Shown piece by piece: positions 7,180 through 64,000 of a stretch of 64,000 bases of DNA. The translations under genes were made by a program, and so were the position numbers. The number at the start of each line of letters is the position of its first letter. The first letter of the stretch is position 1. This DNA comes from Cryobacterium glaciale (GTDB lineage: Bacteria; Actinomycetota; Actinomycetes; Actinomycetales; Microbacteriaceae): NCBI RefSeq assembly GCF_004402535.1, contig NZ_SOEY01000028.1, positions 248,001 through 312,000 of the forward strand. The letters are read 5' to 3'. The notes under the pieces are model-generated. The model did not search any database, was not told the DNA's origin, and worked only from the letters and a program-made list of their open reading frames with translations.

Positions 7180-7276
7180 CCGGTTGAGTGGAGGGCTAGC
7201 GCGTCTGTGTGTCGCCGGATGACTCACACCGGCACCGGTTCCTCCCCGTGTCGGAGGCCCCCGCTAGCCTTGGACC

Positions 7277-8242
7277 ATGAGCGCACCCGTTCCGTCCTCG
7301 CCCGCCGTGTCCAGCCCCGCCGCGTCTAGCCCCGTCGTGTCTAGCCCCGTCGTGTCTAGCCCCGTTGTCTCCACTCAATGGCTGGCCGACCACCTCGGTT
7401 CCGACAACCTGGTCGTTCTCGACGCCACGGTGTTCGCCCTGGCCCCGTCCTCGACCGAAGCCGGCGCGGCTGGGCCACGCTACCTCAGCGGGCGTGACGA
7501 TTACCTCACCAAGGGACACATTCCCGGCGCCGTGTTCGCCGACCTGTTCGACGTCTTCTCCGACCCGGCCGGTGACTACGATTTCTCCCGGCCGAGCGCA
7601 GAGCTGTTTGAGGCGGCTGCGGCATCCGTCGGTATCGACAACGGCACGACCGTCGTCGTCTACGACGCCGTGGTCGGCCAGTGGGCAGCGCGCATCTGGT
7701 GGCTTTTCCGCTCGTTCGGCTACGACGACGTCGCCGTACTCGACGGCGGTCTCACCAAGTGGCACGCCGAGACACGTCCGTTCGCCACCGGCGGCACGCG
7801 CCCGCGGAACGCCGGCGGTTTTGTGGCCAAGCCACGCCCCGAACTGTGGGTCGACAAGAGTTTCGTCGAGTCGATCGTTGCCGGTAAAGCGGATGCCGCC
7901 CTCGTCTGCTCGCTGCCGCCGGCGGAATTCGCCGGAACGGCCGGGTCACGCCCGCGCGCCGGGCACATCCCCGGCAGCATCAGCCTGCCGGCGGGCGCGC
8001 TCGTCGACCCCGCCACCAATGCGTTCCTGCGCGGGGACCGGCTCACCGCCACGATCGCCCCGGCTGTCGCGGCCGTCGGGTCATCCGGGCACCTGGTGAC
8101 CTACTGCGGCGGCGGTATCGCCGCGGCCGCGAGCGCCCTCGCGCTCGTCCGCGCCGGTAACGAACACGTGTCGATCTACGACGGCTCGCTCAACGAGTGG
8201 GCCGCCGACGCCTCGGCTCCGTTAAGCGCGCCCGGCCGGTAG
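7277..8242 (+). CDS. Sulfurtransferase (thiosulfate/3-mercaptopyruvate, double rhodanese)
   Basis: Two tandem rhodanese domains in 321 aa. The first has GHIPGAVFADL, VVVYDAVVGQWAARIWW and VLDGGLTKW. The second carries GHIPGSISLPA and the active loop TYCGGGIAAA with catalytic Cys277. The loop sequence CGGGIA resembles bacterial enzymes labelled SseA, but thiosulfate versus mercaptopyruvate preference cannot be assigned. The first 30 residues are a low-complexity Ser-Ser-Pro-Val-Val array from a 15-bp tandem repeat; the conserved fold starts at VSTQWLADHL. It converges on the helicase gene with 19 bp between stops. Confidence 0.9.
   Translation: MSAPVPSSPAVSSPAASSPVVSSPVVSSPVVSTQWLADHLGSDNLVVLDATVFALAPSSTEAGAAGPRYLSGRDDYLTKGHIPGAVFADLFDVFSDPAGDYDFSRPSAELFEAAAASVGIDNGTTVVVYDAVVGQWAARIWWLFRSFGYDDVAVLDGGLTKWHAETRPFATGGTRPRNAGGFVAKPRPELWVDKSFVESIVAGKADAALVCSLPPAEFAGTAGSRPRAGHIPGSISLPAGALVDPATNAFLRGDRLTATIAPAVAAVGSSGHLVTYCGGGIAAAASALALVRAGNEHVSIYDGSLNEWAADASAPLSAPGR
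7295..7369 (+). repeat. 15-bp tandem repeat at the 5' end of the sulfurtransferase gene
   Basis: Five 15-bp units in register, the last three nearly identical (TCTAGCCCCGTCGTG at 7325, 7340 and, with changes, 7355). Each encodes Ser-Ser-Pro-Val/Ala-Val/Ala. Confidence 0.9.
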
Positions 8243-8261
8243 CTGACAACAGCTGAGCGCG

Positions 8262-10775: not shown

Positions 10776-10886
10776 AGTCCCTCAAGACTGCACTACCGAA
10801 GCAGCAAGATGTGACGGATGTCTGACGAAACCGCCTCGACGTCCCCGCCGGGTGGTAATCCCAGCCGCCGGTTCTAGGCTGGCAAC

Positions 10887-12467
10887 ATGGCCTCCCCCAT
10901 TACCGTGAGCACCCCGACCCGGCGGCACGCCCCCGTGGTGCGGCGGTTCTGGCGGCCGGCGGCCGCCGGTCTTGCCGCCGCCATCGCGGGACTCGGCCTG
11001 GCCGAATTGACCGCCGCGTGGCTCGCCCCCGGCGCGAGCCCGGTACTCACCGTCGGCGCCCTCATCATCGATATTGTTCCGCCCGCCGTCAAGGAACTCG
11101 TCATCGGCCTGTTCGGCACGGCCGACAAGATCGTGCTGATCGTGACCATCGTGCTCGTGCTGCTTCTGGTCGCGGCCCTCGCCGGCATCCTCGAGAGTCG
11201 ACGCCCGCCGTTCGGCCGCCTGCTGGTGGTACTCATCGGCGGGATCGCCCTGTTCGCGGCGCTCTCCCGTTCCAGCGCCTCGACCCTCGACGCCGTGCCC
11301 GCCGTCGTCGCCATGGGCGCCGCGGCCATCGCGCTCACTTTTCTCTGCACCCGGCTGCCGAGTCCCCCGGCACCGGCCGAGGCTGCGCCCGGCCCCGACC
11401 GCCGCCGCTTCCTCGTCTACACCGGCATAACCGCGGGCATCGGCGTGCTCGCCCTCGCCGGCGGCCAGCTCAGCGCCGCAGCAACCAGGGCAGCGGATGC
11501 CGCGCGCGCCTTATTCACCCTGCCCGCAGCATCCGTTCGCCAGGCCGCGATACCGGCCGGAGCGAGCCTCGACGTGCCGGGCATCACCCCGCTGATCACC
11601 CCGAACGCCGACTTCTACCGCATCGATACCGCCCTGAGCGTGCCGCGCATCGACCCGCGCGAGTGGCGGCTGAGAATCACCGGAATGGTCGAGAACGAGG
11701 TCGAGATCGATTTCGCCGAGCTACTGGCCCTGCCGCTCGAAGAGAGCACGACCACCCTGGCCTGCGTGTCGAACTATGTGGGGGGCGACCTGATCGGCAA
11801 CGCCACCTGGCTCGGCTACCCGATCCGCGAGCTGCTGGCCCGCGCCAAACCCACGAGCGGCGCCGACATGGTGCTCTCCACGAGCCAGGACGGCTTCACC
11901 GCCGGCACCCCGATCGAGGCGCTCACCGACGGGCGCAACGCCATCCTCGCCGTCGGCATGAACGGTGAACCACTCCCCCTCGAGCATGGCTACCCGGTGC
12001 GCATGGTCGTGCCAGGCCTGTACGGCTACGTCTCAGCCACGAAATGGGTCGTCGAGCTCAAGCTCACCCGATTCGACCAGGAGCAGGGCTACTGGACTCC
12101 GCGCGGCTGGTCCGAGCTGGGACCGGTCAAGCTCTCCTCGCGCATCGACGTGCCCCGCGAGGGCACCACGGTTCCCGCCGGCTCCGTTGTCATCGCCGGT
12201 GTCGCCTGGTCGCAGCACGTGGGGATCAGCGCGGTCGCCGTGCAGATCGACGACGGCCCGTGGCGAGACGCCACCCTCGCCGACGCGATCTCGGTCGACA
12301 CCTGGCGGCAGTGGGCCTACACCTGGGACGACGCGAGCGCCGGCGACCACACCGTCAGGGTGCGGGCAACGGATGCCGTCGGCCTCGTTCAGACGTCAGC
12401 CACCGCCGACGTCGCCCCCGACGGCGCCACCGGGCTGCACGAGATTTCGGTGTCCGTCTCGGGATGA
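10887..12467 (+). CDS. Membrane-anchored molybdopterin-dependent oxidoreductase (sulfite oxidase family)
   Basis: The 526-aa protein has four hydrophobic helices in the first 150 residues, a fifth near residues 175-195, then an extracytoplasmic sulfite-oxidase-type molybdopterin domain. The Mo-ligand cysteine is Cys293 in TTLACVSNYVGG. Further family blocks are ATWLGYPIRELL, HGYPVRMVVPGLYGY and KWVVELKLTRF. The last 100 residues form the Ig-like dimerisation domain (VGISAVAVQIDDGPW, YTWDDASAGDHTVRVRATD). The natural substrate is unknown. It is transcribed alone and converges on a gene remnant. Confidence 0.88.
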   Translation: MASPITVSTPTRRHAPVVRRFWRPAAAGLAAAIAGLGLAELTAAWLAPGASPVLTVGALIIDIVPPAVKELVIGLFGTADKIVLIVTIVLVLLLVAALAGILESRRPPFGRLLVVLIGGIALFAALSRSSASTLDAVPAVVAMGAAAIALTFLCTRLPSPPAPAEAAPGPDRRRFLVYTGITAGIGVLALAGGQLSAAATRAADAARALFTLPAASVRQAAIPAGASLDVPGITPLITPNADFYRIDTALSVPRIDPREWRLRITGMVENEVEIDFAELLALPLEESTTTLACVSNYVGGDLIGNATWLGYPIRELLARAKPTSGADMVLSTSQDGFTAGTPIEALTDGRNAILAVGMNGEPLPLEHGYPVRMVVPGLYGYVSATKWVVELKLTRFDQEQGYWTPRGWSELGPVKLSSRIDVPREGTTVPAGSVVIAGVAWSQHVGISAVAVQIDDGPWRDATLADAISVDTWRQWAYTWDDASAGDHTVRVRATDAVGLVQTSATADVAPDGATGLHEISVSVSG

Positions 12468-12473
12468 CCCGAG

Positions 12474-12680
12474 TCAGTTGCCCTCGTAGGCGGCGCGCAG
12501 CCAGCCGAGCAGCTCGTCGTCGACGTCGGCGAGGCTGGTGGTCACCGACACCTTGTGGGTGCACATCCCGCCGGCCAGCAGCAGGCGGTCGGTGGGCGCG
12601 GCATCCGCCAGATTGATGCCCAACTGCAGGCGCATGGCGCTCGCCGGTTCGATCAGGAGGTGCGCCGGTGCGTGGGAGTT
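12474..12680 (-). pseudogene. C-terminal remnant of a small DUF5655-like protein
   Basis: An open frame without a proper start encodes AHLLIEPASAMRLQLGINLA, then PTDRLLLAGGMCTHKVSV and VDDELLGWLRAAYEGN before the stop. This resembles the C-terminal half of small DUF5655-type proteins of actinobacteria (assigned from memory of the family pattern). An in-frame TAG at 12681-12683 and the terminator hairpin of the next gene replace the expected N-terminal half. A 53-aa product from ATG 12635 is possible but has no visible ribosome site. Most likely a decayed 3' end left by a deletion. Confidence 0.6.
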
Positions 12681-12703
12681 CTACTCCCGCGCACCGGCGC
12701 ACC
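12659..12703 (-). terminator. Strong hairpin terminator after the ferritin-like gene
   Basis: A 20-bp stem (12659-12678 with 12684-12703) broken only by one wobble pair, loop TTCTA. It starts 24 bp after the ferritin-like stop and covers the 5' edge of the gene remnant. Confidence 0.8.
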
Positions 12704-12727
12704 TCGAGCACGACCCGACGCCGGTGG

Positions 12728-13684
12728 TTAGCCGTTAGCGCCGCTCGTGTTGATGACGCCGTTCACGCCGGCCGGGAAGAACCCGCCAGAGCGCACCGGC
12801 GCCGCGTTGAGATAGGTGATATTGAGCACCTGGGCGGCGCTACGGCTGAAGGCCAGGCCGTTGGCGTCGGTCGGCACGAGGTTGGCCTTCGAAGCGTTGC
12901 CGATGCCCTGGTCGAGGTCGGTCGGGCCGTCGACGGCGTCGCGCACGTCAGAGATGGCCTGCGCGGTCGTGTAGACCGAGGGCAGTGCGATCCCGAGCGC
13001 GTAGAGCGTGCTGCGGATGACCCCGGCGTGGTAGGCCTCGACAGCGAGCAGGCCGGCGGCCGCCTCCAGGAACGTCTTGTTCGAGATCAGCGGAGCCGCG
13101 CCCTTGTAGGCGGTTACTCCGACATCTTCGAAGATGAACGCCCCGAACAGAAAGTTCGCCTCGTTGGCGTACACGTCGAACTTCTGCCCCGGCTTGACCA
13201 GCCCGGCCGCCTGGGCGGCCGCAGTGAAGCTCGCGTCGAGGTTGATCTTCGGGCGAGATACCTTTGCGCTGCCCAGTGCGGACCGCAGGAAGGCCACGTG
13301 GGCCTTCTCGTCGGCGGCGATTTCATCGGCGTACTTCTTGATGATCCCGGTTTTGAAGTTCACCATGCGTCCACCGGTCACACCGCCGCGGGTGCCGGTT
13401 CCCGTGGTCATGTTGTCGGGCAGCCCGCTCCCGGTCGTGGCGCGCAGGTAGAACTCGGCCTCGAGGTATTCGAGGTTGAGTGCGAAGTTCAAGATGGCCG
13501 CGTCACTCGGTGCTCCTGCCGGCGCCTCGGACGCCTCTGCGGCCAATGCCGGCCCGCCGGTGGCGAGCATCGCTGCTCCTACACCGAAGCCAGCCACACC
13601 AGCCGCGCGCAGAAAGTTGCGGCGGTCCGAAGAATTCTCCGCGCTACGGTTGATGGCGTTGGTAATGAAACCCTGATCGAACAT
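12728..13684 (-). CDS. Tat-exported ferritin-like domain protein
   Basis: A 318-aa protein with a twin-arginine signal: SSDRRNFLRAAG, hydrophobic core, then AxA-like cleavage near PALAAEA. The mature part is a ferritin-like four-helix domain similar to plant and bacterial desiccation-related proteins. Candidate metal ligands are EYLEAEFY, DEIAADEKAHVAF, FEDVGVTAY and VEAYHAG. The ATG at 13684 has AGGAGA seven bases upstream. The role, possibly oxidative-stress or metal related, is inferred. tatC and tatA, encoding the exporter it would use, are the next genes upstream on the same strand, 149 bp away. Confidence 0.87.
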   Translation of the reverse strand: MFDQGFITNAINRSAENSSDRRNFLRAAGVAGFGVGAAMLATGGPALAAEASEAPAGAPSDAAILNFALNLEYLEAEFYLRATTGSGLPDNMTTGTGTRGGVTGGRMVNFKTGIIKKYADEIAADEKAHVAFLRSALGSAKVSRPKINLDASFTAAAQAAGLVKPGQKFDVYANEANFLFGAFIFEDVGVTAYKGAAPLISNKTFLEAAAGLLAVEAYHAGVIRSTLYALGIALPSVYTTAQAISDVRDAVDGPTDLDQGIGNASKANLVPTDANGLAFSRSAAQVLNITYLNAAPVRSGGFFPAGVNGVINTSGANG

Positions 13685-13833
13685 CCTTGTTCTCCTGACG
13701 TTGTATGAATGTGTCGGGCATGTCTGAAAAGACGTCGTCAACGTACCCGCAGTAAGCAATCGTTCGAAAGGCTGGACACGGCACGTAAGCAAATGATAAG
13801 AAATTTTCTCACTTTTTCGCGGACAGCGGCGGG

Positions 13834-14625
13834 TTAGAGCAGGAGGCCGTCGACACCGACCGGGGGCAGGCGCCGGGCGGCGCGACGATCGTGCAGCACC
13901 GCGATGCCGTACGCGGCGAAGTAGAGCACCACCATGGGAACGGCCAGCAGGAACATCGACACGACGTCGGCCGCCGGCGTCGCGATCGCGGTGAACAGGA
14001 CGATCACCAGTATCGCCACCCGCCAGGACTTGATGATGGAGCGGGCGCTGATCACACCGGCAAAGTTCAGCAGCACGACGAACACCGGAAGCACGAACGC
14101 GATTCCAATGGCGATCATGAGTTTGAGCACGAAATCGAAATAGTTCTGCGCGTTGATGAGCGCGGCATCCTGTTGCGGCGCGAAACTCGTCATGAGTTCG
14201 ACCACGTGCGGCAGCACATACCAGCCCGCAGCACACCCGGCCAGGAACAGCGGCACGGCGGTGAAGAAGAAGCCGAAGGTGTATTGCTTCTCCTTGCGGG
14301 TGAGCCCGGGGGTGAAAAAAGCAAAGATCTGATACAGCCACACCGGGCTCGACACGATCAAGCCCACATAGAACGAAATGCGCAGCTTGAGGTCGAACGC
14401 ACTCGTGATATCGGGATAGTTGATCTGCGCATTGCGGTTTTGGGCGCGCACGATCGCGTAGATCGGCTCGCGCAGGCCGTCCCAGACGAGGCCAGACAGG
14501 AACCAGCCGGCGATCGCGCCGACCAGGATGCCGAGTGCCGCCAGAAAGAGGCGCTTGCGCAACTCCAGCAGGTGCTGGCCGAGCGACATCGTGCTCTTAT
14601 CGCGGTGCACGCCCTGCACGACCAT
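13834..14625 (-). CDS. tatC: Sec-independent protein translocase TatC
   Basis: Six-helix receptor subunit of the Tat translocase that recognises twin-arginine signals. The 263-aa protein has the N-terminal signature MSLGQHLLELRKRLF, then FYVGLIVSSPVWLYQIFAFFTPGL and KEKQY, the most conserved TatC block. Six hydrophobic segments follow the expected pattern. It starts 5 bp after the tatA stop. ATG 14625 is used; ATG 14589 (MSLGQ) is also possible. No tatB is present here. Confidence 0.95.
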   Translation of the reverse strand: MVVQGVHRDKSTMSLGQHLLELRKRLFLAALGILVGAIAGWFLSGLVWDGLREPIYAIVRAQNRNAQINYPDITSAFDLKLRISFYVGLIVSSPVWLYQIFAFFTPGLTRKEKQYTFGFFFTAVPLFLAGCAAGWYVLPHVVELMTSFAPQQDAALINAQNYFDFVLKLMIAIGIAFVLPVFVVLLNFAGVISARSIIKSWRVAILVIVLFTAIATPAADVVSMFLLAVPMVVLYFAAYGIAVLHDRRAARRLPPVGVDGLLL

Positions 14626-52731: not shown

Positions 52732-53234
52732 GAAGTGAAGACGTCGGTCCAGACCGCTCTCGACCCTGACTCCCCGATCAGCGCGACCGTGACGACCGCA
52801 CCGATCGCGCTGACCAGAACGACCAGGTCGAGCACGACGGTCGCCACGAGCCGCCCCGTACGGTTCGGCAGAGCGGATGCGAAACGGGCACCCTCAGCGG
52901 CGATATAGCGGTACCAGACCCACTGCAGCGCGGCCGCGAGGAACAGGGCGATCACCCACGGGAGCATCGTCGTGCCGAGCGACGTGTGCGCGCCCAGCAG
53001 CGGGCTGACATTGACGAGGCGCGACTGCAGCCACTCTCCCGCCTGCACCGCGACCGGAACCAGCACGAGCGCCGCGAGGGCGACGAGCGGCGTCACGATG
53101 CCCAGTCGCCGCCGAGCGACCGGCCAGAAAGCCGTAAGCACCGCGCACAGCGCGGCCAGCGGCACCACGATCACGACGGCGTGCACGATCAGCACGTGCA
53201 GCGGCAGTCCGTTGAATTCCCAATCAATGATCAT
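52728..53234 (-). CDS. DUF2231-like membrane protein
   Basis: 168-aa membrane protein with four hydrophobic segments. The start NGLPLHVLIVHAVVIVVPLA matches the DUF2231 pattern with two histidines in the first helix, which may bind heme or metal. Further helices: VTPLVALAALVLVPVAVQAG, LPWVIALFLAAALQWVWY, VLDLVVLVSAIGAVVTVAL. Function unknown. Divergent from ggt with 132 bp between. Confidence 0.78.
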   Translation of the reverse strand: MIIDWEFNGLPLHVLIVHAVVIVVPLAALCAVLTAFWPVARRRLGIVTPLVALAALVLVPVAVQAGEWLQSRLVNVSPLLGAHTSLGTTMLPWVIALFLAAALQWVWYRYIAAEGARFASALPNRTGRLVATVVLDLVVLVSAIGAVVTVALIGESGSRAVWTDVFTS

Positions 53235-53366
53235 AATGCGTCTCCAGTTCAAAGCTGTGACTTCGGGGGACTCAGAATGGGCGGTCGGGCCGCTTGGCCT
53301 GATCATTGCACGATTCCATCCGGCAGACCCGCAACCTTCTTGCTGGTCTCGTGCGAGGGTAGACGG

Positions 53367-55238
53367 GTGACCTATACCGCTCCGAACGCATTCACCACCC
53401 GTCCGACCCTGCAGGGAACCTTCGGGATGACCGCCTCGACGCACTGGCTCGCAACGGCCTGCGCCCAGGCCGTGCTCGAGCGGGGCGGCAACGCCTTCGA
53501 CGCCGCGGTGGCCGGCGCCTTCGTGCTGCACGTCGTGGAACCGCACCTGAACGGGCCAGGCGGCGACCTGACCGGCGTCTTCATCACGGCGGGTGAACCG
53601 GATGCCCCGCGCGTCGTGATGGGGCAGGGGCCGGCCCCGCAGGCGGCCACCATCGACCACTACCGCGCCGAGGGCCTCGACCTGGTTCCCGGATCGGGGG
53701 TGCTCGCCGCTGCCGTACCCGGCGCGGTCGACGCCTGGCTCGTGCTGCTGCGCGATCACGGCACCTGGGAGCTGGCCGACGTGCTTTCCTTCGCCCGCGG
53801 GTACGCGCGCGACGGACATCCGATTCTCGGCCGGGTCGTCGCCACGATCGGCTCGGTCGCGACACTCTTCACCGAGCACTGGCCGACCTCGGCCGCGCAG
53901 TGGATGCCGAATGGCCACCTTCCCCAGGCTGGCGACCTCGTGACCAATGCCGCCTGGGCGACGACCCTCGACCGCCTGCTCGCGGCGAGCTCGGGCTCGG
54001 GCTCGGCCGTCGCCAACCGCGCGGGGCGCATCGACGCGGTCCGAAGGGAATGGCGGGAGGGGTTTGTAGCCCGTGCCATCGTGGATTTCGGGCGCACACC
54101 GCACCGGCATTCCTCGGGCACCGACCATGCCGGCGTGATGACCCTGGCCGACCTCGCCGGTTTCGAAGCGAGCATCGAGGAGGCCACTACCGTGGTATTC
54201 CGCGGCCACACGATCGCCAAGACCGGCGCCTGGGGGCAGGGGCCGGCGCTGCTGCAGACCCTGATGATTCTCGACGGGTTCAGCGACGAGCACCTTGACC
54301 CGTCGACCGCGCTCGGCGCGCACACCATCCTCGAGGCGCAGAAGCTGAGTTTCGCCGACCGGGAAGCCTATTACGGGGACGACGACGTCCCACTGGATTA
54401 CCTCCTGTCTGCCGACTACGCGGCCAGCCGGCGGGCGCTCATCACCGGGCAGGCCTCCCCCGAGTTGCGCCCGGGCGTCGTGCCAGGACGCTCCCCGTAC
54501 CTGCCGGTGCTGCGCACCGAGTACACGACGGAGGCGCTAGCGAAGCAGGGGGCGGCGGCATCCGCTGCGGTCGGCGAACCGACGGTCGCCGCGCCCACTC
54601 GCGCCGCACGCATCGAAACGGAGCCCGAAACGCTCTCGACCGGTGAGCTGCGCGGCGACACCTGCCACATCGACGTCGTCGACCGCTGGGGCAATATGGT
54701 CTCCGCGACGCCGTCGGGCGGCTGGCTGCAGTCGTCGCCGACGATTCCCGAGCTGGGCTTCTGCCTCGGCTCCCGCCTGCAGATGACCTGGCTGGAGCCC
54801 GGTGCGCCCTCGGCCCTGACCGGCGGCAAACGCCCGCGCACGACCCTCACCCCCACACTCGTTCTGAAAGACGGGCAGGCGGTGACGGCGCTCGGCTCCC
54901 CCGGCGGCGACCAGCAGGACCAGTGGCAGTTGCTCTACCTGCTGCGCACGATCGTGGGCGGCTACACTCCGCAGCAGGCGATTGATGCGCCCGCCTTTCA
55001 CAGCACCTCGTTTCCGGGTTCGTTCTGGCCGCGCACCTGGGAACCCGGCGGCGCCGTCGTGGAAGACCGCCTGGGCGAGGCGGTCATCGCCGAACTCGAG
55101 CAGCGCGGCCACCGAATCACCCGGGCCGGCGACTGGGCGCTCGGCCGTATCTCGGCGGTCACCCGCGACCCGAAGACCGGATTGCTGCAGGCGGCGGCCA
55201 ATCCGCGCGGGGCCCAGGGGTACGCCGCGGGTCGTTGA
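53367..55238 (+). CDS. ggt: Gamma-glutamyltransferase family protein
   Basis: Ntn-hydrolase of the gamma-glutamyltranspeptidase family, 623 aa, which hydrolyses or transfers gamma-glutamyl groups. TLQGTFGMTASTHWLAT and AVLERGGNAFDAAVAGAFVL start the large subunit. The self-processing nucleophile Thr is in GDTCHIDVVDRWGN; NMVSATPSGGW and LGSPGGDQQDQW follow in the small subunit. No signal peptide is visible, so it may act in the cytoplasm. GTG 53367 follows GAGGG. The neighbouring operon makes a gamma-glutamyl amide, so a link is possible. Confidence 0.9.
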   Translation: MTYTAPNAFTTRPTLQGTFGMTASTHWLATACAQAVLERGGNAFDAAVAGAFVLHVVEPHLNGPGGDLTGVFITAGEPDAPRVVMGQGPAPQAATIDHYRAEGLDLVPGSGVLAAAVPGAVDAWLVLLRDHGTWELADVLSFARGYARDGHPILGRVVATIGSVATLFTEHWPTSAAQWMPNGHLPQAGDLVTNAAWATTLDRLLAASSGSGSAVANRAGRIDAVRREWREGFVARAIVDFGRTPHRHSSGTDHAGVMTLADLAGFEASIEEATTVVFRGHTIAKTGAWGQGPALLQTLMILDGFSDEHLDPSTALGAHTILEAQKLSFADREAYYGDDDVPLDYLLSADYAASRRALITGQASPELRPGVVPGRSPYLPVLRTEYTTEALAKQGAAASAAVGEPTVAAPTRAARIETEPETLSTGELRGDTCHIDVVDRWGNMVSATPSGGWLQSSPTIPELGFCLGSRLQMTWLEPGAPSALTGGKRPRTTLTPTLVLKDGQAVTALGSPGGDQQDQWQLLYLLRTIVGGYTPQQAIDAPAFHSTSFPGSFWPRTWEPGGAVVEDRLGEAVIAELEQRGHRITRAGDWALGRISAVTRDPKTGLLQAAANPRGAQGYAAGR

Positions 55239-55734: not shown

Positions 55735-57003
55735 TCAGGTACTCGCAGGCACCAGCAGGTCGGCGAGCACCAGGGCGAGGGCGCGGGCACCGGCCTCGGC
55801 GTCGTCGTCCTCGACGTATTCCTCTGGCGAGTGTGAGACCCCGGTGGGGTTGCGCACGAAGAGCATCGCGGTCGGCACGAACTGGGTGAGGATCCCCGCG
55901 TCGTGACCGGCGCCGGTGTCTTGCACCGGCGCATCCGGAAGGAGCAGGCTCAGGTGGTCGCGCAGGGCCGAGTCGAAGCTGACCGTGCGACTGACCGACT
56001 CTTCGGTGAGCTGCACCGTGCAACCCTCGTTCGCCGCGATCAGACGGGCTTCGGCCAGAATGGTGGCCACCACGGCTGCCGTCACCGCGTCGTCGGGATG
56101 CCGCGCGTCCAGCCACAGGTCGACCCGGGAAGCGATCACGTTAGTGCCCCCCGGCACCGGTTCGAGCCGTCCGACGGTGGCCCGGGTGCCCGGCTGGGCG
56201 CGGGCGGTGTCGCGGATGGCCATGACGATGCCCGCCGCCGCGATCATCGGGTCGTGTCGGTCGGTCATGAGCGTGGTGCCGGCGTGGTTCCCCTGGCCGG
56301 TCACGCTCAGGCGCCAGCGACCGTGGCCGAGGATCGACGAGCCGATGCCGACTGGCTGGTGGCGGTCGATGAGCACGCGGCCCTGCTCGACGTGCAGCTC
56401 GATGAACGTCCCGATCCGGGCCAGTGCCTCCGGGTCCGGTCCGAGAAAGGCCGGGTCGAAGCCGCTCTTCGCTGCCACCTCGGCGAACGAGTCGCCGTTC
56501 TGGTCGCGCAGGCCGCGGGCCAGGTCCACGTCGATCGCGCCGGTGAGCACGCGGGTTCCGAGGCAGGCCACACCGAACCGCGATCCTTCCTCCTCCGGGA
56601 ACACCGCGATGGCGAGCGGGCGTTCGGGGCGAAGGCCGCCGGCCCTCAGAATATCGAGGGCGACAAGCGCGGAGGCGACCCCGAGCGGACCGTCGAAGGC
56701 GCCGCCGCCGGGCACCGAGTCGAGATGACTGCCGGTGACGACAGCGTTGGCGGTGTCACCGGCTGGTGTGTACCACCAGGCCCAGATGACCCCGTTGCGG
56801 TCCGTCTCGACGTCGAGCCCACGTTTGGCCGCGTGGGCGAGGAACCAGGCGCGGAGGTCGAATTCGGCGCTGGAGAAGACCGGCCGAGAATAGCCGCCGC
56901 GGTGCGGATCGGCGCCGACCCGGCTGATCTCGGCCAGCAGCCCGGCGACCGTGTCGGCGGGGGCGGCCGTGCGGGGCCCGGCGGCCGGGGCGGGCACCGT
57001 CAC
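55735..57003 (-). CDS. M20-family Zn-dependent amidohydrolase (allantoate amidohydrolase/carbamoylase type)
   Basis: 422-aa di-metal amidase. Metal-binding blocks GSHLDSVPGGGAFDGPLGV, FPEEEGSRFGVACLGTRVL, ELHVEQGRVL, GQGNHAGTTLMTDRHDP and GAGHDAG. The family splits N-carbamoyl or ureido amino acids and related amides; the substrate here is unknown. GTG 57003 overlaps the stop of the oxidase gene by 4 bp (GTGA). Last gene of the seven-gene operon; it might hydrolyse a gamma-glutamyl or N-acyl intermediate. Confidence 0.88.
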   Translation of the reverse strand: MTVPAPAAGPRTAAPADTVAGLLAEISRVGADPHRGGYSRPVFSSAEFDLRAWFLAHAAKRGLDVETDRNGVIWAWWYTPAGDTANAVVTGSHLDSVPGGGAFDGPLGVASALVALDILRAGGLRPERPLAIAVFPEEEGSRFGVACLGTRVLTGAIDVDLARGLRDQNGDSFAEVAAKSGFDPAFLGPDPEALARIGTFIELHVEQGRVLIDRHQPVGIGSSILGHGRWRLSVTGQGNHAGTTLMTDRHDPMIAAAGIVMAIRDTARAQPGTRATVGRLEPVPGGTNVIASRVDLWLDARHPDDAVTAAVVATILAEARLIAANEGCTVQLTEESVSRTVSFDSALRDHLSLLLPDAPVQDTGAGHDAGILTQFVPTAMLFVRNPTGVSHSPEEYVEDDDAEAGARALALVLADLLVPAST

Positions 57004-58124
57004 GGGTGTACCCGGAACTGCGGCGGCACCGACCCGACGCCGGTCGCCAGGTCGGCGGCGAGCTCGCCGATCACCGGCGCGAACTTGGCACCGTGCCCGG
57101 AGCACGGTGAGAGCAGGGTGATGTTGTCAACGCGGTCGATGATGAAGTCCTCCGTCGGCGTGTTGGTGAACAGGCAGGTGGTCTCAGCGTACGGCGTGGG
57201 GTCGAGGCCCGGCAGGTAGCGGGCCACGTAGTTGACGACCCGTTCACGGTTGGCCGCTCCCATGATGCCGTCCTGGTCGGCCGCCGAGGCGAGGTGTTTG
57301 CCGCCGTTGTACTCGGCGATTTTCTGGCCGCGAAAAGAGGCGTCACGGCCGCCCGGCAGCCCGTACACCTGCATGCCGTCCATCTTGTGAATGAAAGTCG
57401 GCCAGTGCCCGGTGGTATCGGGTTCGACGTAGGGAAAGTGATAGGCCTGCTCCTGCATGACCGTGATCGTGGGGATCTGCGCGCGGAAGGCACTCGGCAG
57501 CGGCAGCTCTCCGAGCAGGCTCGGCAGCCAGCCGCCGGCGCTGACGATCACGTTCTCGGCGTCGACGGTCTCGCCAGTGGCGCTGTGCACCCGATATCCG
57601 GTGGCCGTCTCACTCACCCGGGCCACCGGCCAGTTGTTCCGTAACTGCGCGCCCGCCGCGCGGGCCAACTCGACCATGGTGGTCACAGCCGTTTCGGCGT
57701 CGATGACTCCGGCGCCCGGGTGCCAGAGTACCGGGGTGTCGAAGGCGATCTGCGGCCAGCGCTGGCGGGCAGCATCCGCTGTGAGCAGGTCGTGGTCGAT
57801 GCCGGCGCCCTGCAGCACCCGGGCGAGCGCTTCGGGCTCGCGCAGCGTTCCGTAGTCGAGGGAACCGGTGGGGGTGATGAGCTGCCGACGGCCCAGCCGG
57901 GTCAGTTCGTCCCAGCCGACTTTGGCCTGCTGCACGAGGCCGGTGTAGAACGCCTCGGGGTAGGCGTAGCGAAAGATGCGCGCCGAACCGTGCGAGCTTC
58001 CAGCATCGTTGGCGGGGGTGGACCGTTCCAGGATGGTGACCTCGTGGCCACGACGGGCGAGCTGCCAGGCGGTGGCCGCTCCGGCCAGGCCTGCTCCGAT
58101 GATGACGTACTGTGCGCTACTCAC
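57000..58124 (-). CDS. Monomeric sarcosine oxidase / N-methyltryptophan oxidase-like flavoprotein
   Basis: 374-aa FAD amine oxidase that demethylates secondary N-methyl amino acids to the amino acid, formaldehyde and H2O2. FAD motif VIIGAGLAGAATAWQLARRG; substrate/flavin region GSSHGSARIFRYAYPEAF; likely covalent flavin Cys341 in LLSPCSGHGAKFAP. Single-chain MSOX/SolA layout, not the four-subunit type. In this operon N-methylglutamate is an attractive substrate: oxidation would return glutamate. 38 bp after amt and coupled to the M20 gene. Confidence 0.88.
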   Translation of the reverse strand: MSSAQYVIIGAGLAGAATAWQLARRGHEVTILERSTPANDAGSSHGSARIFRYAYPEAFYTGLVQQAKVGWDELTRLGRRQLITPTGSLDYGTLREPEALARVLQGAGIDHDLLTADAARQRWPQIAFDTPVLWHPGAGVIDAETAVTTMVELARAAGAQLRNNWPVARVSETATGYRVHSATGETVDAENVIVSAGGWLPSLLGELPLPSAFRAQIPTITVMQEQAYHFPYVEPDTTGHWPTFIHKMDGMQVYGLPGGRDASFRGQKIAEYNGGKHLASAADQDGIMGAANRERVVNYVARYLPGLDPTPYAETTCLFTNTPTEDFIIDRVDNITLLSPCSGHGAKFAPVIGELAADLATGVGSVPPQFRVHP

Positions 58125-58162
58125 TGTGTTCTCCTGCTCGACTTATGGGATAAAGCGGATGC

Positions 58163-59443
58163 TTACGGCGCCGACACCAGGTCGGCGGCGGTACTGGAAT
58201 CGGCGTGGTCGTCGTAGGCGTCTTCGGCGTGCGCGTGCCGGTCGATCCCGTCGACCTCATCTTTCTCGGGGATGCGCAGTCCGATGGTCAGGTCGAGCAC
58301 CTTGGCGATGAGCCAGGTGACGACGAAGGAGTACAGCAGCACGGCGCCGGCGGCGAGGGCCTGGATACCGAGCAGCTCGATACCACCACCGTAGAACAGG
58401 CCGTTGCGGCCGTTGGGGGCGGCATCCGTTGCGAAGAACCCGATCAACAGGGTACCGACCAGGCCGCCGACCATGTGCACGCCGACGACGTCGAGGGAGT
58501 CGTCGTAGCCGAGCGTGAACTTCCATTCCACGGCGAGGCAGCAGACGATGCCGGCGATGGCACCGATGGCGATCGCACCCATCGGGCTGACCGCACCGCA
58601 GGCCGGGGTGATCGCCACGAGGGCGGAGATCAGGCCGGACGCGGCGCCGAGGCTCGTGACCGAACCATGGCGGAGTCGGTCGACGAGGGCCCAGCCGAGC
58701 AGGCCGGCGCAGGCGGCCACGGTGGTGTTGAGAAAGACGACGCTCGCGGCGTTGCCGGCGCTCAGGGCTGAACCGGCGTTGAAGCCGTACCAGCCGACCC
58801 AGAGCAGGCCGGCCCCGACGAGCACGAGCGGCCGGTTGTGCGGCTTGAGCGGGCCGCCCCAGCCCTTGCTGCGGCCGAGCACGATGGCCAGGGCGAGGGC
58901 GGCCACGCCGGCGTTCATGTGCACCGCGGTGCCGCCGGCGAAGTCGATAGCGCCGAGGTCGTTGGCGATCCAGCCGCCGACGACGCTGTCGCCGTCGAAG
59001 GCGAACACCCAGTGCGCCACGGGAAAGTAGACCAGCGCGGCCCAGATGCCGGCGAACAGCAGCCAGGCGCCGAACTTCATGCGTCCGGCCGCGGCCCCGG
59101 CCACGAGGGCGGTGGTCACCCCGGCGAACAGCAGCTGGAACACGATGAACAGCGCGAGCGGCAGGGCTGCGTCGGGGTCGTCGGCGAGGATCGTTTCGAG
59201 TCCGAAGAATTCGAGCGGGTCGCCGAGCAGCCCGAGGCTGCCGAGCGAGTCACCGAAGGTGGCCGAGTAGCCGAAAATAACCCAGAGAACGGCGACGAGA
59301 CTTGCGCCGCCGAAGCACATCATCATCATGTTCAGAATGCGTTTCGAGCTGACCATGCCACCGTAGAACAGGGCGAGGCCGGGAATCATCAGTGCCACGA
59401 GTGCCGAGCTGGTCAGCAGCCAGGCTGTATTGCCAGTATCCAT
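58163..59443 (-). CDS. amt: Ammonium transporter, Amt family
   Basis: 426-aa trimer-forming channel with 11 predicted helices that moves ammonium and often methylammonium. Gate and pore features: ALMIPGLALFYGGMV, twin histidines in GGTAVHMNAG and VVGVHMVGGLVGT, LLWVGWYGFNAGSAL. The C-terminal tail is long and acidic/His-rich. No glnK (PII) gene follows. In this operon it may import methylamine as well as ammonium. Confidence 0.94.
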   Translation of the reverse strand: MDTGNTAWLLTSSALVALMIPGLALFYGGMVSSKRILNMMMMCFGGASLVAVLWVIFGYSATFGDSLGSLGLLGDPLEFFGLETILADDPDAALPLALFIVFQLLFAGVTTALVAGAAAGRMKFGAWLLFAGIWAALVYFPVAHWVFAFDGDSVVGGWIANDLGAIDFAGGTAVHMNAGVAALALAIVLGRSKGWGGPLKPHNRPLVLVGAGLLWVGWYGFNAGSALSAGNAASVVFLNTTVAACAGLLGWALVDRLRHGSVTSLGAASGLISALVAITPACGAVSPMGAIAIGAIAGIVCCLAVEWKFTLGYDDSLDVVGVHMVGGLVGTLLIGFFATDAAPNGRNGLFYGGGIELLGIQALAAGAVLLYSFVVTWLIAKVLDLTIGLRIPEKDEVDGIDRHAHAEDAYDDHADSSTAADLVSAP

Positions 59444-59483
59444 GAGCGTGTCCTTGTCGTTTATCGGTGAAGAGAGCGGATGC

Positions 59484-60803
59484 TCAGCGGCCGGGAATCC
59501 AGCTGGTGCCGGCGAGCGGCACCCCGGCCATCGCGGCGGCTTCCACCGTGAGGGCGACGAGGTCTTCGGGTTCGAGGTGGTGCAGGTGTGACTTGCCGCA
59601 GGCCCGCGCGATCGTTTGGGCTTCCAGGGTCAGTACACGCAGGTAGTTGGCGATGCGCTTGCCGCCCGCGATCGGGTCGAGCCGCGCGGCGAGCTCCGGG
59701 TCCTGGGTGCTAATGCCGGCCGGGTCCTTACCGTCCTGGAAGTCGTCGTAGAACCCGGCGGATGAGCCGAGCGCTTCGTATTCGGCCTGGTAGCGCGGGT
59801 CGTTGTCGCCGAGGGCGATGAGCGCTGCGGTGCCGATCGAGACCGCGTCGGCGCCGAGCGCGATGGCCTTGGCCACGTCGGCACCGTTGCGGATACCGCC
59901 GGAGACGATGAGCTGCACCGTGCGGTGCACGCCGAGCTCCTGCAGGGCGGCGACCGCCGGACCGATCGCGGCGAGGATCGGGATACCCACGTTCTCGATG
60001 AAGACCTGCTGGGTGGCCGCCGTTCCGCCCTGCATACCGTCGAGCACGACCACGTCGGCGCCGCTCTTCACGGCGAGCGCGGTGTCGTAGTAGGGCCGGG
60101 AGGCGCCGACCTTGACGTAGATCGGCGTGTGCCAGTCGGTGATCTCGCGCAGTTCGGCGATCTTGATCGCGAGGTCGTCCGGGCCGGTCCAGTCGGGGTG
60201 CCGGCAGGCCGACCGCTGGTCGATGCCCACCGGCAGGGTGCGCATGCCGGCGACGCGTTCGGTGATCTTCTGGCCGAGGAGCATGCCGCCGCCACCGGGC
60301 TTGGCGCCCTGGCCGAGCACAATCTCGATCGCATCGGCTTTGCGCAGGTCATCGGGGTTCATGCCGTAGCGGGACGGCAGGTACTGGTAGACGAGGTGGC
60401 GGGACTGCCCGCGTTCCTCGGGGGTCATGCCGCCGTCGCCGGTGGTGGTGGAGGTGCCGGCCTCGGTGGCTCCACGGCCGAGGGCCTCCTTGGCGTTGGC
60501 TGAGAGGGCGCCGAAGCTCATGCCGGCGATGGTGATCGGAATGTCGAGGGTGATCGGCTTGAGTGCGTGGCGGCCGCCGAGGGTGACGTCGGTGCCGCAC
60601 TTCTCGCGGTACCCCTCGAGCGGATACCGGGACACGCTCGCGCCGAGAAAGAGCAGGTCATCGAAATGCGGCAGGGCCCGCTTCGCGCCCCAGCCGCGAA
60701 TATCGTAGATACCGGTCGTGGCGGCCCGCTGGATGTCGTTGATGGTGGCACGGTCGAAGGTGGCCGATTCGCGCAGGCCCCGGCTGGCATAGCTGTTCGT
60801 CAT
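59484..60803 (-). CDS. FMN-binding glutamate-synthase-domain protein (MgsC/GlxD type)
   Basis: 439-aa counterpart of the FMN domain of glutamate synthase. DIPITIAGMSFGALSANAKE, STTTGDGGMTPEERGQSRHL, GQGAKPGGGGMLLGQKI, YVKVGASRPYYDTALAVKSG, VVVLDGMQGGTAATQ and CGKSHLHHLEPEDL are GltB/MgsC-like. The central cysteine cluster of full GltB is reduced (SACRHPDWTGPDD). With the two next genes it forms a split glutamate synthase or N-methylglutamate synthase. 29 bp after the GXGXG gene. Confidence 0.88.
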   Translation of the reverse strand: MTNSYASRGLRESATFDRATINDIQRAATTGIYDIRGWGAKRALPHFDDLLFLGASVSRYPLEGYREKCGTDVTLGGRHALKPITLDIPITIAGMSFGALSANAKEALGRGATEAGTSTTTGDGGMTPEERGQSRHLVYQYLPSRYGMNPDDLRKADAIEIVLGQGAKPGGGGMLLGQKITERVAGMRTLPVGIDQRSACRHPDWTGPDDLAIKIAELREITDWHTPIYVKVGASRPYYDTALAVKSGADVVVLDGMQGGTAATQQVFIENVGIPILAAIGPAVAALQELGVHRTVQLIVSGGIRNGADVAKAIALGADAVSIGTAALIALGDNDPRYQAEYEALGSSAGFYDDFQDGKDPAGISTQDPELAARLDPIAGGKRIANYLRVLTLEAQTIARACGKSHLHHLEPEDLVALTVEAAAMAGVPLAGTSWIPGR

Positions 60804-60832
60804 GGTGTGTCCCTTGATTTCGTGAGCGGCGT

Positions 60833-61549
60833 TTAGTAGGCGGCGGCGTTGACGGCGGCGAAGTGGTACAGCGTGCGGGCTGAGCCGTAGCGGCGAAACT
60901 CGGCCGGGTCATCCGTTCGACCGGCCAGGGCGAGCAGTTCGGCCAGTTCAGCCAGGTGCTCGGGCCGCAACGGCTTCTCGATGCAGTCGGCGCCGAGGGA
61001 GGCGACCGTGCCCTTCACGTAGATTCGGGCCTCGTAGATTGAGTCGCCGAGGCCCTCTCCGGCGTCGCCGCAGACCACGAGCCGACCCGCCTGAGCCATG
61101 AACGCCGAGGCGTGGCCGATGTCACCGCCCACGACGATGTCCACGCCCTTCATCGAGATACCGCAGCGGGCGCCGGTGTTGCCGTCGACGACGACGAGGC
61201 CGCCCTGCCCGGTGGCCGCGGCGGCCTGCGAGGCGTCACCGGTGACGTGCACCGTGCCCGACATGATATTCTCGGCCAGTCCGACGCCGGCGCTGCCGTG
61301 CACCGTGACGCGGCCTTTCTGGTGCATGCCGGCGAAATAGTAGCCGACGTGCCCGTTGACCACGAGGTCGAGGTCACGGTCGATGCCGACGGCGATGTTG
61401 TGCTGCCCGGCCGGGGTGTCGACGACCCAGCTCGTGCCGTCGTCGGTGGCGTGCAGGGCCTGGTTGAGGTCGCGGACGGTGCTCACCGCGAGGTCTATGG
61501 CGGTGATCCGCGCGGTGTTCGTGGGTGCGGGAGCGTGGGTGATGGTCAC
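60833..61549 (-). CDS. GXGXG-domain subunit (MgsB/GlxC type)
   Basis: 238-aa right-handed beta-helix protein corresponding to the C-terminal domain of GltB. GXGXG-like turns: GRVTVHGSAGVGLAENIMSG, GDASQAAAATGQGGLVVVDG, GDIGHASAFMAQAGRLVVCG, GDAGEGLGDSIYEARIYVKG. It has no known catalysis of its own and joins the amidotransferase and FMN subunits. Overlaps the amidotransferase gene by 4 bp. Confidence 0.88.
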   Translation of the reverse strand: MTITHAPAPTNTARITAIDLAVSTVRDLNQALHATDDGTSWVVDTPAGQHNIAVGIDRDLDLVVNGHVGYYFAGMHQKGRVTVHGSAGVGLAENIMSGTVHVTGDASQAAAATGQGGLVVVDGNTGARCGISMKGVDIVVGGDIGHASAFMAQAGRLVVCGDAGEGLGDSIYEARIYVKGTVASLGADCIEKPLRPEHLAELAELLALAGRTDDPAEFRRYGSARTLYHFAAVNAAAY

Positions 61550-62475
61550 AGGGTCACCAGTTCTTTGGTCGAGTCGAGGGTCCAGGTGTAGACGACGCCG
61601 GGAGCGGGTTCGAAGATGCGCGCGTTCGCAATGCCGGGGAGGTGCGCGAGGGCGCGATATTCACTCGCCATCGCGACCCAGGCATCCGTTTCGGCGATGA
61701 TGGCGGGCTTGCATGCGATGGGGTCGCGCACAATAGCCATGCTCGTGGCGGTCGTGACGACGAGCGTGTAGAACCCGTCGAAGACGCCGCCAAGCTTTTC
61801 GAGGGCGGTCGTGAGGGTGTCGCCGGCTGCGAGGCGCCAGGCGATGTAGCGGGCGGCGACCTCCGAGTCGTTCTCACTGTCGAAGGTGACGCCCTCGGCG
61901 CACAGCTGGCGACGGATGGTGGCGTGGTTGCTGAACGATCCGTTGTGCACGAGGCAGAGGTCGTCGGCGACGGTGAACGGATGCGAGCCGGCGGCGGTCA
62001 CGGCCGACTCGGTGGCCATGCGGGTGTGTGAGAGCCCCTGGCTGCCGGTCGCCGCGCGCAGGTCGTACTGCTCGGCCAGGTCAAGCGGATGCCCGGTGCC
62101 CTTACGCACCGCCACGTGCTCGCCGCGGCCGGCGATCTGCACGCCGGGAAGGATGCTTGTCACGGCCTGTTCGAGCGCGCTCGTGCCGATCTGGGCATTG
62201 ATGAGGGTGGTCTCACCGAAGCCGGTGACGGTGACGCCGACGGCCGGCGGCACTGCGTCCCGGAGGGCTGCGGCGAGCGCGTCGGGGTTCAACTCGGCGT
62301 TAAGCACGGTGACGGTGCTCGTGCCGGCCGGGGTGAGGCTCGGGTCGTTGTAGATGGCGAGTCCGGCCGAGTCGGGGCCGCGATCGACGATGCCGCACAG
62401 CATGCCGTGCATGAGCTCGCCGAGGCTGGCGCGCAGGGCGACGTCGCGAATTTGAAGTGCTGCAATGCCACACAT
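61546..62475 (-). CDS. Class II glutamine amidotransferase subunit (MgsA/GlxB type)
   Basis: 309-aa Ntn amidotransferase. The N-terminal nucleophile is Cys2 (MCGIAALQI), with GIVDRGPDSAGLAIY, SHTRMATESAV and LVHNGSFSNHATIRR as glutamine/amide-binding loops. It would release ammonia from glutamine, or methylamine from gamma-glutamylmethylamide in the N-methylglutamate route. 21 bp after the ligase gene, overlapping the next by 4 bp. Confidence 0.88.
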   Translation of the reverse strand: MCGIAALQIRDVALRASLGELMHGMLCGIVDRGPDSAGLAIYNDPSLTPAGTSTVTVLNAELNPDALAAALRDAVPPAVGVTVTGFGETTLINAQIGTSALEQAVTSILPGVQIAGRGEHVAVRKGTGHPLDLAEQYDLRAATGSQGLSHTRMATESAVTAAGSHPFTVADDLCLVHNGSFSNHATIRRQLCAEGVTFDSENDSEVAARYIAWRLAAGDTLTTALEKLGGVFDGFYTLVVTTATSMAIVRDPIACKPAIIAETDAWVAMASEYRALAHLPGIANARIFEPAPGVVYTWTLDSTKELVTL

Positions 62476-62496
62476 AGGGGATCCTGTCTCTTCGAG

Positions 62497-63888
62497 TTAG
62501 TAAGCGGTGAGGTAGGAGTTGATCTCCCAGTCGGTGATCGTGTTGTGCCAGGTCAGGAATTCGTCTTCCTTCGCCTGGGCGAAATATGCGCCGACCGGAT
62601 GCGCGATTCCGAACGAGTCCAGCAGCACCCGGTCACCGCGCAGCGCCTCCACCGCGTGCAGCAGGGTCTGCGGCAGTACCGCGGAGGTCGCGCGCGACTC
62701 CCCCGGCCCGCACGGGTCCCCCGGGTCGATCGCCTGGTCGAGCCCGTCGAGCCCGGCGGAAATCGTGGCAGCAATGGCGAGATACGGGTTGGCCGAGCCG
62801 TCGCCGGCGCGCAACTCGATGCGCTTACCGTCGGGCACCCGGATGAAGTGGGTGCGATCGTTTCCACCGTAGGTGGCCTTCTTCGGCGACCAGGTCGCCC
62901 CGGACGCACTCGTGGACGCGCCGCGGCGCTTGTAGGAGTTGACCGACGGCGCCAGGAAGGCTTGCAGCCCGGAGGCGTGGGCCAGGATGCCGCCGATGAA
63001 GGCATAGGCGGTCGGCGACAGGCCGAGGCCTCTCCGGTCGTGATCGTCGGGGAACACCGGGGCGTCGTCAGCCCACAGCGAGAGGTGAAAGTGCAGTCCG
63101 CTGCCGGCGCGATCGGCGAAGGGCTTGGGCATGAACGTCGCGGTCATGCCGCGCTGTTCAGCGAGCACGCTGATCAGGTAGCGCAGGGTGACCACCCGGT
63201 CGGCGGTGACGAGGGCGTCGTCGTAGGCGAAGTTCTGCTCGAACTGGCCCGCGGCATCCTCGTGATCGTTGGCGTAATTGCCCCAGCCGAGGGTGTTCAT
63301 GGCGTCGCTCACCGCGGTGAGGTGGTCGTACATGCGGGTCACGCCGCGGGCGTCGTAGCAGGTGCGCGCACCGTCATCGCGGCGGTCTGCGGTGCTGATG
63401 GCGCCGGCTTCGTCCTGGTGCACGAGAAAGTATTCGACCTCGGCGCCGACCTTGGCCTGCAGGTTGCGCTGGGCGAGGTCCCGGATCGCCTTCTTGAGGA
63501 TGACCCGCGGAGCGTACGGCCACGGTTCGCCGTTCACGTGCGGGTCGCAGTGCACGATGCCGAGGCCCTCCTTCACGAACGGGATGGCCACGAAGGACGA
63601 CAGGTCGGGAACGGCGATGAGGTCGGGATCCTGCGGACGCTGCCCGATCAAGCCGGCCGCGAAACCGGCAAAGCCTAGGTCGCCGGCTTCGAGCTGGTCG
63701 GCCGCCGCGGTCGGCACGAGCTTGGCGCACGGCTTGCCGTTCAGATCGACGAAGACGGCGAGGATGAAACGCACGCCGTCCGCCTCGGCGAGTTCGCGCA
63801 GGGTTGGTGGGCTGAGTGTGGCTGATTGCGGTGAAGCTGTGACGGCCTGGGCCCGTCGCGCCTCCCCCAGCTCTGCAATATTTGTCAT
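62497..63888 (-). CDS. Glutamine synthetase-like ligase, GlnT / gamma-glutamylmethylamide synthetase type
   Basis: 463-aa ATP-dependent glutamate-amine ligase of the type III/GlnT group. Catalytic-core motifs: KVGAEVEYFLVHQDE, NHEDAAGQFEQNF, SGLHFHLSLW, NSYKRRG, RVPDGKRIELRAGDGSANPY. No adenylylation Tyr loop of GSI is evident. Members make glutamine (GlnT) or gamma-glutamylmethylamide (GmaS); the company of MgsABC-type genes favours the latter. GAGGAGAGG precedes ATG 63888. First gene of the operon. Confidence 0.88.
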   Translation of the reverse strand: MTNIAELGEARRAQAVTASPQSATLSPPTLRELAEADGVRFILAVFVDLNGKPCAKLVPTAAADQLEAGDLGFAGFAAGLIGQRPQDPDLIAVPDLSSFVAIPFVKEGLGIVHCDPHVNGEPWPYAPRVILKKAIRDLAQRNLQAKVGAEVEYFLVHQDEAGAISTADRRDDGARTCYDARGVTRMYDHLTAVSDAMNTLGWGNYANDHEDAAGQFEQNFAYDDALVTADRVVTLRYLISVLAEQRGMTATFMPKPFADRAGSGLHFHLSLWADDAPVFPDDHDRRGLGLSPTAYAFIGGILAHASGLQAFLAPSVNSYKRRGASTSASGATWSPKKATYGGNDRTHFIRVPDGKRIELRAGDGSANPYLAIAATISAGLDGLDQAIDPGDPCGPGESRATSAVLPQTLLHAVEALRGDRVLLDSFGIAHPVGAYFAQAKEDEFLTWHNTITDWEINSYLTAY

Positions 63889-63946: not shown

Positions 63947-63997
63947 GTTGCTTCAGAGTAACCAGATGAATTGATCGGGGTATGACCGGGATGTTAC
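63947..63997 (-). promoter_or_regulatory. Candidate GlnR-type sites upstream of the ligase operon
   Basis: On the minus strand: GTAAC-N6-GTCAT (63982-63997) and, further down, GTTAC-N6-GCAAC (63947-63962), both with 11-bp periodicity. They resemble GlnR half sites and the phased repeat upstream of narK. Inference only. Confidence 0.35.
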
Positions 63998-64000
63998 GAA

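Follow-up and report, generated by a model that had tools for sequence, protein, structure and literature searches.

A candidate N-methylglutamate pathway for methylamine in Cryobacterium glaciale with a single-chain flavoenzyme at the position of MgdABCD

Known N-methylglutamate systems and the Cryobacterium operon

Methylated amines occur widely as sources of nitrogen and are also climate-active trace gases (PMC7948447). One of the closest described systems to that presented here is the gmaS-mgsABC-mgdABCD cluster of Methylobacterium extorquens DM4, and Pseudomonas putida given its mgsABC-gmaS genes makes N-methylglutamate (PMC6237917). We compare with it an operon of seven genes from Cryobacterium glaciale, located in a stretch of 64,000 nt (hereafter, the window; assembly GCF_004402535.1, contig NZ_SOEY01000028.1, positions 248,001-312,000, forward strand) of a 3.7 Mb genome (G000) which is 99.3% complete. 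A GmaS-group ligase and three synthase subunits are common to both, whereas the last step belongs in M. extorquens DM4 to the four-subunit MgdABCD and the Cryobacterium operon has a single-chain enzyme of the monomeric sarcosine oxidase (MSOX) type, plus Amt and M20 genes.

In methylotrophic Mycobacterium, clusters with Gma/MgsA-C and MgdA-D were reported in 2015 and proposed for methylamine (PMC5023230). Their Gma/MgsA-C genes form the same actinobacterial core as that of the window operon; whereas MgdA-D were reported there, the mycobacterial loci fetched in this study have a type II DAO enzyme (types I and II are distinguished below) next to the core. Mycobacterium smegmatis MSMEG_6259-6263 (amt1-glnT-GATase-FwdC-glutamate synthase) has the same core with Amt and shows GlnR-dependent induction on nitrogen starvation, and a methylamine role is not stated in the passages of PMC4222082 consulted. 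A plasmid of Rhizobium leguminosarum carries soxBDA-glxA-glxBCD-glnT-purU-dmm, that is, the same core with Dmm-type neighbours, but with Sox-type (Mgd-like) genes where the window operon has a single FAD enzyme. The glnT/glxBCD genes of SAR11 were interpreted in 2011 as a methylamine pathway (PMC3160333), and the same source mentions a monomeric sarcosine oxidase gene and possible unknown substrates. Among the papers listed by a literature search, it alone combined N-methylglutamate with monomeric sarcosine oxidase, and 'N-methylglutamate oxidase' and close phrases gave no paper; the literature searched lacks most subscription journals, and this is no proof of absence. Most likely the operon encodes a methylamine-nitrogen pathway of a known kind, with a variant last step.

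The seven genes are the following:

62497..63888, minus strand: GmaS-type ligase, 463 aa, annotated as type III glutamate--ammonia ligase (profile, PDB matches, residues and tree)
61546..62475, minus strand: GlxB/MgsA-like class II glutamine amidotransferase (GATase), 309 aa (PF13522, PF13537; start alignment)
60833..61549, minus strand: GlxC/MgsB-like GXGXG subunit, 238 aa (PF01493, 33.3 bits, cut-off 32.5)
59484..60803, minus strand: GlxD/MgsC-like FMN glutamate-synthase-domain subunit, 439 aa (PF01645, 287.7 bits)
58163..59443, minus strand: Amt-family transporter (ammonium, perhaps methylammonium), 426 aa (TIGR00836, 428.1 bits, cut-off 343.3)
57000..58124, minus strand: type I single-chain flavoenzyme of the MSOX/N-methyltryptophan oxidase (MTOX) family, 374 aa, proposed N-methylglutamate oxidase (residues, clade and fold)
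55735..57003, minus strand: M20 hydantoinase/carbamoylase-family amidohydrolase, 422 aa from GTG 57003 (456 aa from GTG 57105)

All seven adjoining open reading frames (ORFs) that a previous sequence-only reading had placed at 55735-63888 are present with the sizes it gave, and the class of each product was confirmed by Pfam and NCBIfam profiles. The intergenic gaps are 21, -4, 29, 40 and 38 bp, followed by -106 bp with the longest M20 ORF (456 aa). The GTG at 57003, however, overlaps the stop of the FAD gene as GTGA, agrees with the M20 homologues and is the better choice of start; with it M20 has 422 aa and the last gap is -4 bp, so that the range of -4 to 40 bp previously claimed holds. The order ligase-GlxB-GlxC-GlxD (hereafter, the core) is seen again across related actinobacterial loci, so this arrangement is not due to chance. 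The operon belongs to the accessory genome: counting the window's own genome, three of 37 from the genus have GlxD at 93-100% identity, and of the 23 other genomes of the order sampled one has it at 80%.

We consider it somewhat probable that this operon encodes an indirect (N-methylglutamate) methylamine pathway, mainly for nitrogen, in which the MSOX-type flavoenzyme replaces MgdABCD. Methylamine would enter via Amt, or be produced from dimethylamine by Dmm genes that this genome carries on contig 35, and the ligase would couple it to glutamate. GlxBCD would transfer the methylamino group to 2-oxoglutarate, giving N-methylglutamate and returning glutamate, and the flavoenzyme would convert N-methylglutamate and O2 to glutamate, formaldehyde and H2O2, the formaldehyde being fixed by an HPS/PHI pair. 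In this scheme the substrates, the catalytic steps and the regulation are all inferred.

The GmaS-type ligase and the synthase subunits

Comparisons were made with 84 loci, namely the best 80 of 272 confirmed relatives, which are thus close relatives of the operon, and L037-L040; L038 repeats L043 and was dropped only in a table of 83 loci. Samples of 346 genomes of the phylum and 219 of the family were also used, and from the 21 phylum genomes with a ligase match 15 loci were fetched besides the window's own. Trees were built by a quick method, with SH-aLRT values as their only branch support.

The ligase matched TIGR03105 with 570.7 bits (cut-off 469.6), and its best PDB matches were 7cql (374 bits) and 9qur (334 bits), the next one reaching 192 bits. 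The first of these, the crystallised GmaS of Rhodovulum (RhGmaS), itself bears the PDB name type III glutamate--ammonia ligase, so this label does not decide the function of the ligase. Catalytic and amine-pocket residues of GmaS, which is without the ammonium-binding residues of glutamine synthetase (GS), are named in PMC7948447. According to the alignment the window ligase retains K30, A48, Y147, D177, E179, E186, N188, W300 and R312 (RhGmaS numbering). The catalytic Asp177, Glu186 and Arg312 are all present, the amine-pocket residues other than Gln175 are kept, and the ammonium-binding Asp and Glu of GS are replaced by Ala48 and Trp300. Among the five GS-family paralogues of the same genome, two (L003 and L004) have Asp48/Glu300 and the other three have neither residue set. 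The GmaS side of the earlier label, GlnT/GmaS-like, is supported by these residues.

A phylogeny of the ligase had been proposed as a check. In a 40-row tree, the actinobacterial ligases formed one group (support 100) next to 7cql and its alphaproteobacterial relatives; 9qur and a Cupriavidus protein branched outside this group, and the five GS paralogues lay beyond. The ligase thus groups with 7cql and 9qur and apart from these paralogues, although the branch that separates them is weak (support only 59). A GmaS-related ligase with Thr48, Ser175 and Asp188 was also seen adjoining Amt, without GlxB-GlxC-GlxD, in L171-L174, and is perhaps another gamma-glutamyl-amine ligase.

The three subunits described earlier as MgsA-, MgsB- and MgsC-like, of 309, 238 and 439 aa, do adjoin the gmaS-type gene, and the profiles agree. 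Alignment of starts gave Met-Cys-Gly as the N-terminus of GlxB; the nucleophile of class II amidotransferases is the Cys directly after the start Met. GlxC is 57-61% identical to its homologues in L132, L134 and L154, and 59% in L135. GlxD and its homologue in a cluster of Methylobacterium bullatum with matches to SoxB and SoxD share 82% identity over 429 residues; with the homologue of R. leguminosarum, whose cluster also has SoxB/SoxD, GlxD shares 79%. The corresponding values for the ligase are 43% and 41%. A separate large glutamate synthase gene exists elsewhere in the window's genome.

The flavoenzyme proposed for the last step

MgdABCD was not found in the C. glaciale genome, where SoxB reached at best 52 of 529 bits and SoxA 187 of 1164 (SoxD and SoxG were not searched). 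Consequently, either the MSOX-type protein does the third step, or an enzyme encoded elsewhere does, or the pathway is incomplete. The product that had been called a single-chain sarcosine-oxidase-like enzyme is indeed MSOX/MTOX-like, though under both NCBIfam cut-offs, with 254.6 of 257 bits for N-methyl-L-tryptophan oxidase (NF008425) and 198.3 of 479.65 for soxA_mon (TIGR01377). Alignment showed that it retains R49, R52, Y55, K268, C317 and K347, the same letters as in 7exs and SolA. Taking the roles from MSOX, C317 presumably binds the flavin covalently, K268 activates O2, and R52 and K347 serve the substrate. The folds nearest to its AlphaFold model (mean pLDDT 82) are those of monomeric sarcosine oxidases, N-methyltryptophan oxidase and NikD. 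The flavoenzyme thus shares with MSOX/MTOX the fold, the flavin Cys, the Lys for O2 activation and the residues that bind the carboxylate, whereas it falls in a separate clade, is linked at many loci to GmaS/GlxBCD and has Tyr instead of His at K+4. We infer that it may be an N-methylglutamate oxidase.

A FAD enzyme is present at 74 of the 83 loci: type I only at 33, type II only at 40 and both at one. Four of the nine loci without it (L064, L082, L105 and L119) end at contig ends. Types I and II are separated by a branch with support 100, type I being a clade of its own, and in a single alignment in which they were typed together all type II enzymes but one were without the Lys and the Cys. 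The neighbours of a DAO gene on a Cupriavidus plasmid encode ETF beta, another ETF-like FAD protein, HutD and ETF-quinone oxidoreductase, and in G057 a DAO gene adjoins those for ETF alpha and a CCG iron-sulfur protein. The 15 ligase loci of the phylum sample have type II at four and SoxB at four others (L151, L154, L156 and L157, with SoxD in L151 and L154). That the core stays the same while the flavin demethylase varies is most readily understood if these demethylases act on the product of GlxBCD. In addition, MscR, S-(hydroxymethyl)mycothiol dehydrogenase (a formaldehyde enzyme), directly follows the type I gene on a Streptomyces plasmid, and matches to it above 400 bits were found at L072, L073 and L087 among the 84 loci.

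The type I enzyme was found in 17 genomes of the family sample (E 1e-110) and a ligase match in eight (E 1e-100), six genomes having both (Fisher P 2e-6). Four of these eight matches (G451, G472, G518 and G571; 383-394 bits) have Thr48, Ser175 and Asp188 and no GlxB-GlxC-GlxD in the fetched stretches, and were for this reason counted as another ligase. In the family, each of the four genomes with a GmaS-type ligase also carries the type I enzyme, which in two lies on a different contig; G474 and G584, of the same genus, have the core without a FAD gene and the type I enzyme elsewhere in the genome. Fifteen type I loci are standalone. Seven of them, from other Microbacteriaceae (L138, L160, L162 and L167-L170), have M20 and a LysR gene, with Amt recognised at four and an OCD-family protein at five; NCBIfam 'tyramine oxidase subunit B' was matched by the two OCD-family proteins scanned, those of L138 and L162. 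Around the other eight the profiles used found neither M20 nor Amt. The presence of the type I enzyme in ligase-free genomes implies that its substrate may be a different N-methyl amino acid or may come from another route. Tentatively, and with somewhat less than even confidence, we propose that type I is a new activity, a single-chain, covalently flavinylated N-methylglutamate oxidase that took over the last step of the pathway in several actinobacterial families. In some Microbacteriaceae it may, together with M20, Amt and an OCD-fold reductase of the 'tyramine oxidase subunit B' type, form a second, GmaS-free route in which methylamine is built into an N-methyl amino acid that is then demethylated.

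Genomic context, regulation and competing explanations

Dmm-type (dimethylamine monooxygenase) genes, detected by the HODM profile, are present at 17 of the 84 loci. The congener G003 (L039) has in one stretch the ligase, GlxB, GlxC, GlxD, HutD, the type I enzyme, M20, XRE, two Dmm sets and Amt. The window's operon is without XRE and without Dmm, and contig 35 of its genome (L195, G000:C35:33000-52900) carries at 6089-14140 an XRE-cupin regulator, two HODM-DmmA sets, a EutQ-type cupin and Amt. This XRE matches the same profile as that of G003 (342 bits), and an ORF at the locus is PII-like by eye. We read the operon and the contig-35 Dmm locus as what may be the same system split over two places. 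Ruegeria DmmABC converts dimethylamine to methylamine (PMC5520151). In the phylum sample the ligase was found in 21 genomes, HODM in 14 and both in five (P 0.0007, kinship not corrected). HPS and PHI, for formaldehyde fixation by the ribulose monophosphate (RuMP) pathway, are present over their cut-offs in the C. glaciale genome (L191 10254-11581, G000:C18). A further DAO-family gene lies near this pair. For a mycothiol-dependent formaldehyde dehydrogenase, the best match in this genome had 35% identity and 188 bits and is not claimed.

Three features precede the ligase gene:

63947..63962, minus strand: putative GlnR-like site GTTAC-N6-GCAAC upstream of the ligase, kept in the loci of four Cryobacterium species (L037, L043, L039 and L044)
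63993..64000, minus strand: second putative GlnR-like site, TTTAC-N6-GTAAC, running over the window end into L037
63928..63942, minus strand: inverted repeat TTCACTCACAGTGAA, possible operator, in a conserved block

In the four Cryobacterium loci the ligase gene is preceded by two NTTAC-N6-GNAAC sites, and seven of the 83 loci have one or more such sites, versus about 0.5 expected; the P value for this enrichment is too small because the four Cryobacterium loci are kin. These sites resemble the consensus of the GlnR box. The counterpart genes of M. smegmatis need GlnR for their induction (PMC4222082). The repeat TTCACTCACAGTGAA occurs at one place only within the window at up to two mismatches. 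With up to three mismatches allowed, inverted repeat TTCACTSACAGTSAA did not occur in the Dmm locus L195, and GTTACTCTGAAGCAAC had one match there with three mismatches, which was equalled by 9 of 200 shuffles.

On either side of the operon other genes were observed. A gamma-glutamyltransferase-like gene at 52986-55238 (plus strand) is convergent with it (TIGR00066, 223.7 bits, below the cut-off of 357.85), and a matching gene stands at the same place in C. luteum (L038). Just past the window end, at L037 12422-13273 (minus strand), a PuuD-like class I glutamine amidotransferase gene precedes the ligase on the same strand (NF008471, 59.6 bits, cut-off 266); none was seen in C. luteum L038. Both were set aside.

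What was observed are the genes, their residues, kinship and context, and no SoxA or SoxB over cut-off. The indirect methylamine pathway of the sequence-only reading is thus partly supported: residues, tree, Dmm neighbours and nitrogen-control-like promoter sites agree with its GmaS/MgsABC part, and beyond its reach were the absence of matches to MgdABCD in the SoxB and SoxA searches, the type I enzyme in ligase-free genomes and the Dmm locus on another contig. Several points weigh against the pathway as we propose it. M20, present at 17 of the 33 type I loci and 18 of the 40 type II loci, is not explained by a methylamine pathway. It matches NF006770 (allantoate amidohydrolase) with 601.7 bits (cut-off 372), a name which is annotation only, and HutG with HutD by the Cupriavidus cluster and HutD in G003 suggest by analogy that it might be an N-formylglutamate hydrolase. 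Two copper amine oxidase genes of the same genome (L192, G000:C31; L193, G000:C27) could use methylamine directly, type I enzymes were typed as oxidases by residues only, and seven of the 15 phylum ligase loci are without a demethylase known to the profiles used, two of these seven (L152 and L153) being also without GlxB-GlxC-GlxD. Among the 219 family genomes, 13 of the 17 with the type I enzyme are without the GmaS-type ligase, and so are two of the three phylum genomes with type I matches above 450 bits; a strict link between both enzymes is not upheld by these counts (4 of 17 in the family, 1 of 3 in the phylum). Finally, Gln175 and Trp189 of RhGmaS are Ala and Phe in the window ligase, as in all 84 actinobacterial ligases aligned. 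Of the four deep actinobacterial ligases beside SoxB, three have Ala175 (L151, L154 and L156) and L157 has Gln175; therefore Ala175 alone does not speak against methylamine.

The same substitution bears on the explanation, which we judge improbable, that the chemistry is as proposed with other or broader amines, such as ethylamine or isopropylamine, which would yield N-alkylglutamates and the corresponding aldehydes. Ethylamine and propylamine are substrates of RhGmaS (PMC7948447) and the pocket Gln is Ala in all of the 84 ligases, but Ala175 is shared by three of the four deep ligases beside SoxB and the dimethylamine monooxygenase neighbours indicate methylamine. It is rather unlikely, too, that ligase and GlxBCD make N-methylglutamate while the FAD enzyme, M20 and Amt form a separate nitrogen-scavenging module and another DAO enzyme of the genome demethylates N-methylglutamate; for example, M20 would free an N-methyl amino acid from its N-carbamoyl or N-formyl form and the FAD enzyme would oxidise it. 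The standalone loci with M20 and LysR, those where the FAD enzyme has neither M20 nor Amt nearby, and the other DAO genes of the C. glaciale genome fit such a module, whereas the FAD slot follows the ligase core at most loci, unrelated or distant demethylases fill it elsewhere, and G474 and G584, whose cores are without the FAD gene, yet have the type I enzyme. As to ordinary GlnT/GlxBCD glutamine-glutamate metabolism, it would agree with the database label, with Amt within the operon and with the induction of the M. smegmatis counterpart on nitrogen starvation (PMC4222082). However, the GS ammonium residues are absent in the ligase and present in two paralogues of the same genome, the large glutamate synthase is encoded separately, and the label is also that of crystallised RhGmaS. 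This explanation is very improbable and was set aside on residues and context, the tree agreeing by its weak deciding branch; the methylamine reading is the better of the two.

GmaS-type ligases, RhGmaS among them, are concealed under the name 'type III glutamate--ammonia ligase', so that the extent of methylamine use among actinobacteria may be underestimated. Should the flavoenzyme truly be an N-methylglutamate oxidase, genome searches demanding MgdABCD would miss such organisms, and a single step of the pathway would prove to be served by several distant enzymes while the core stays the same.

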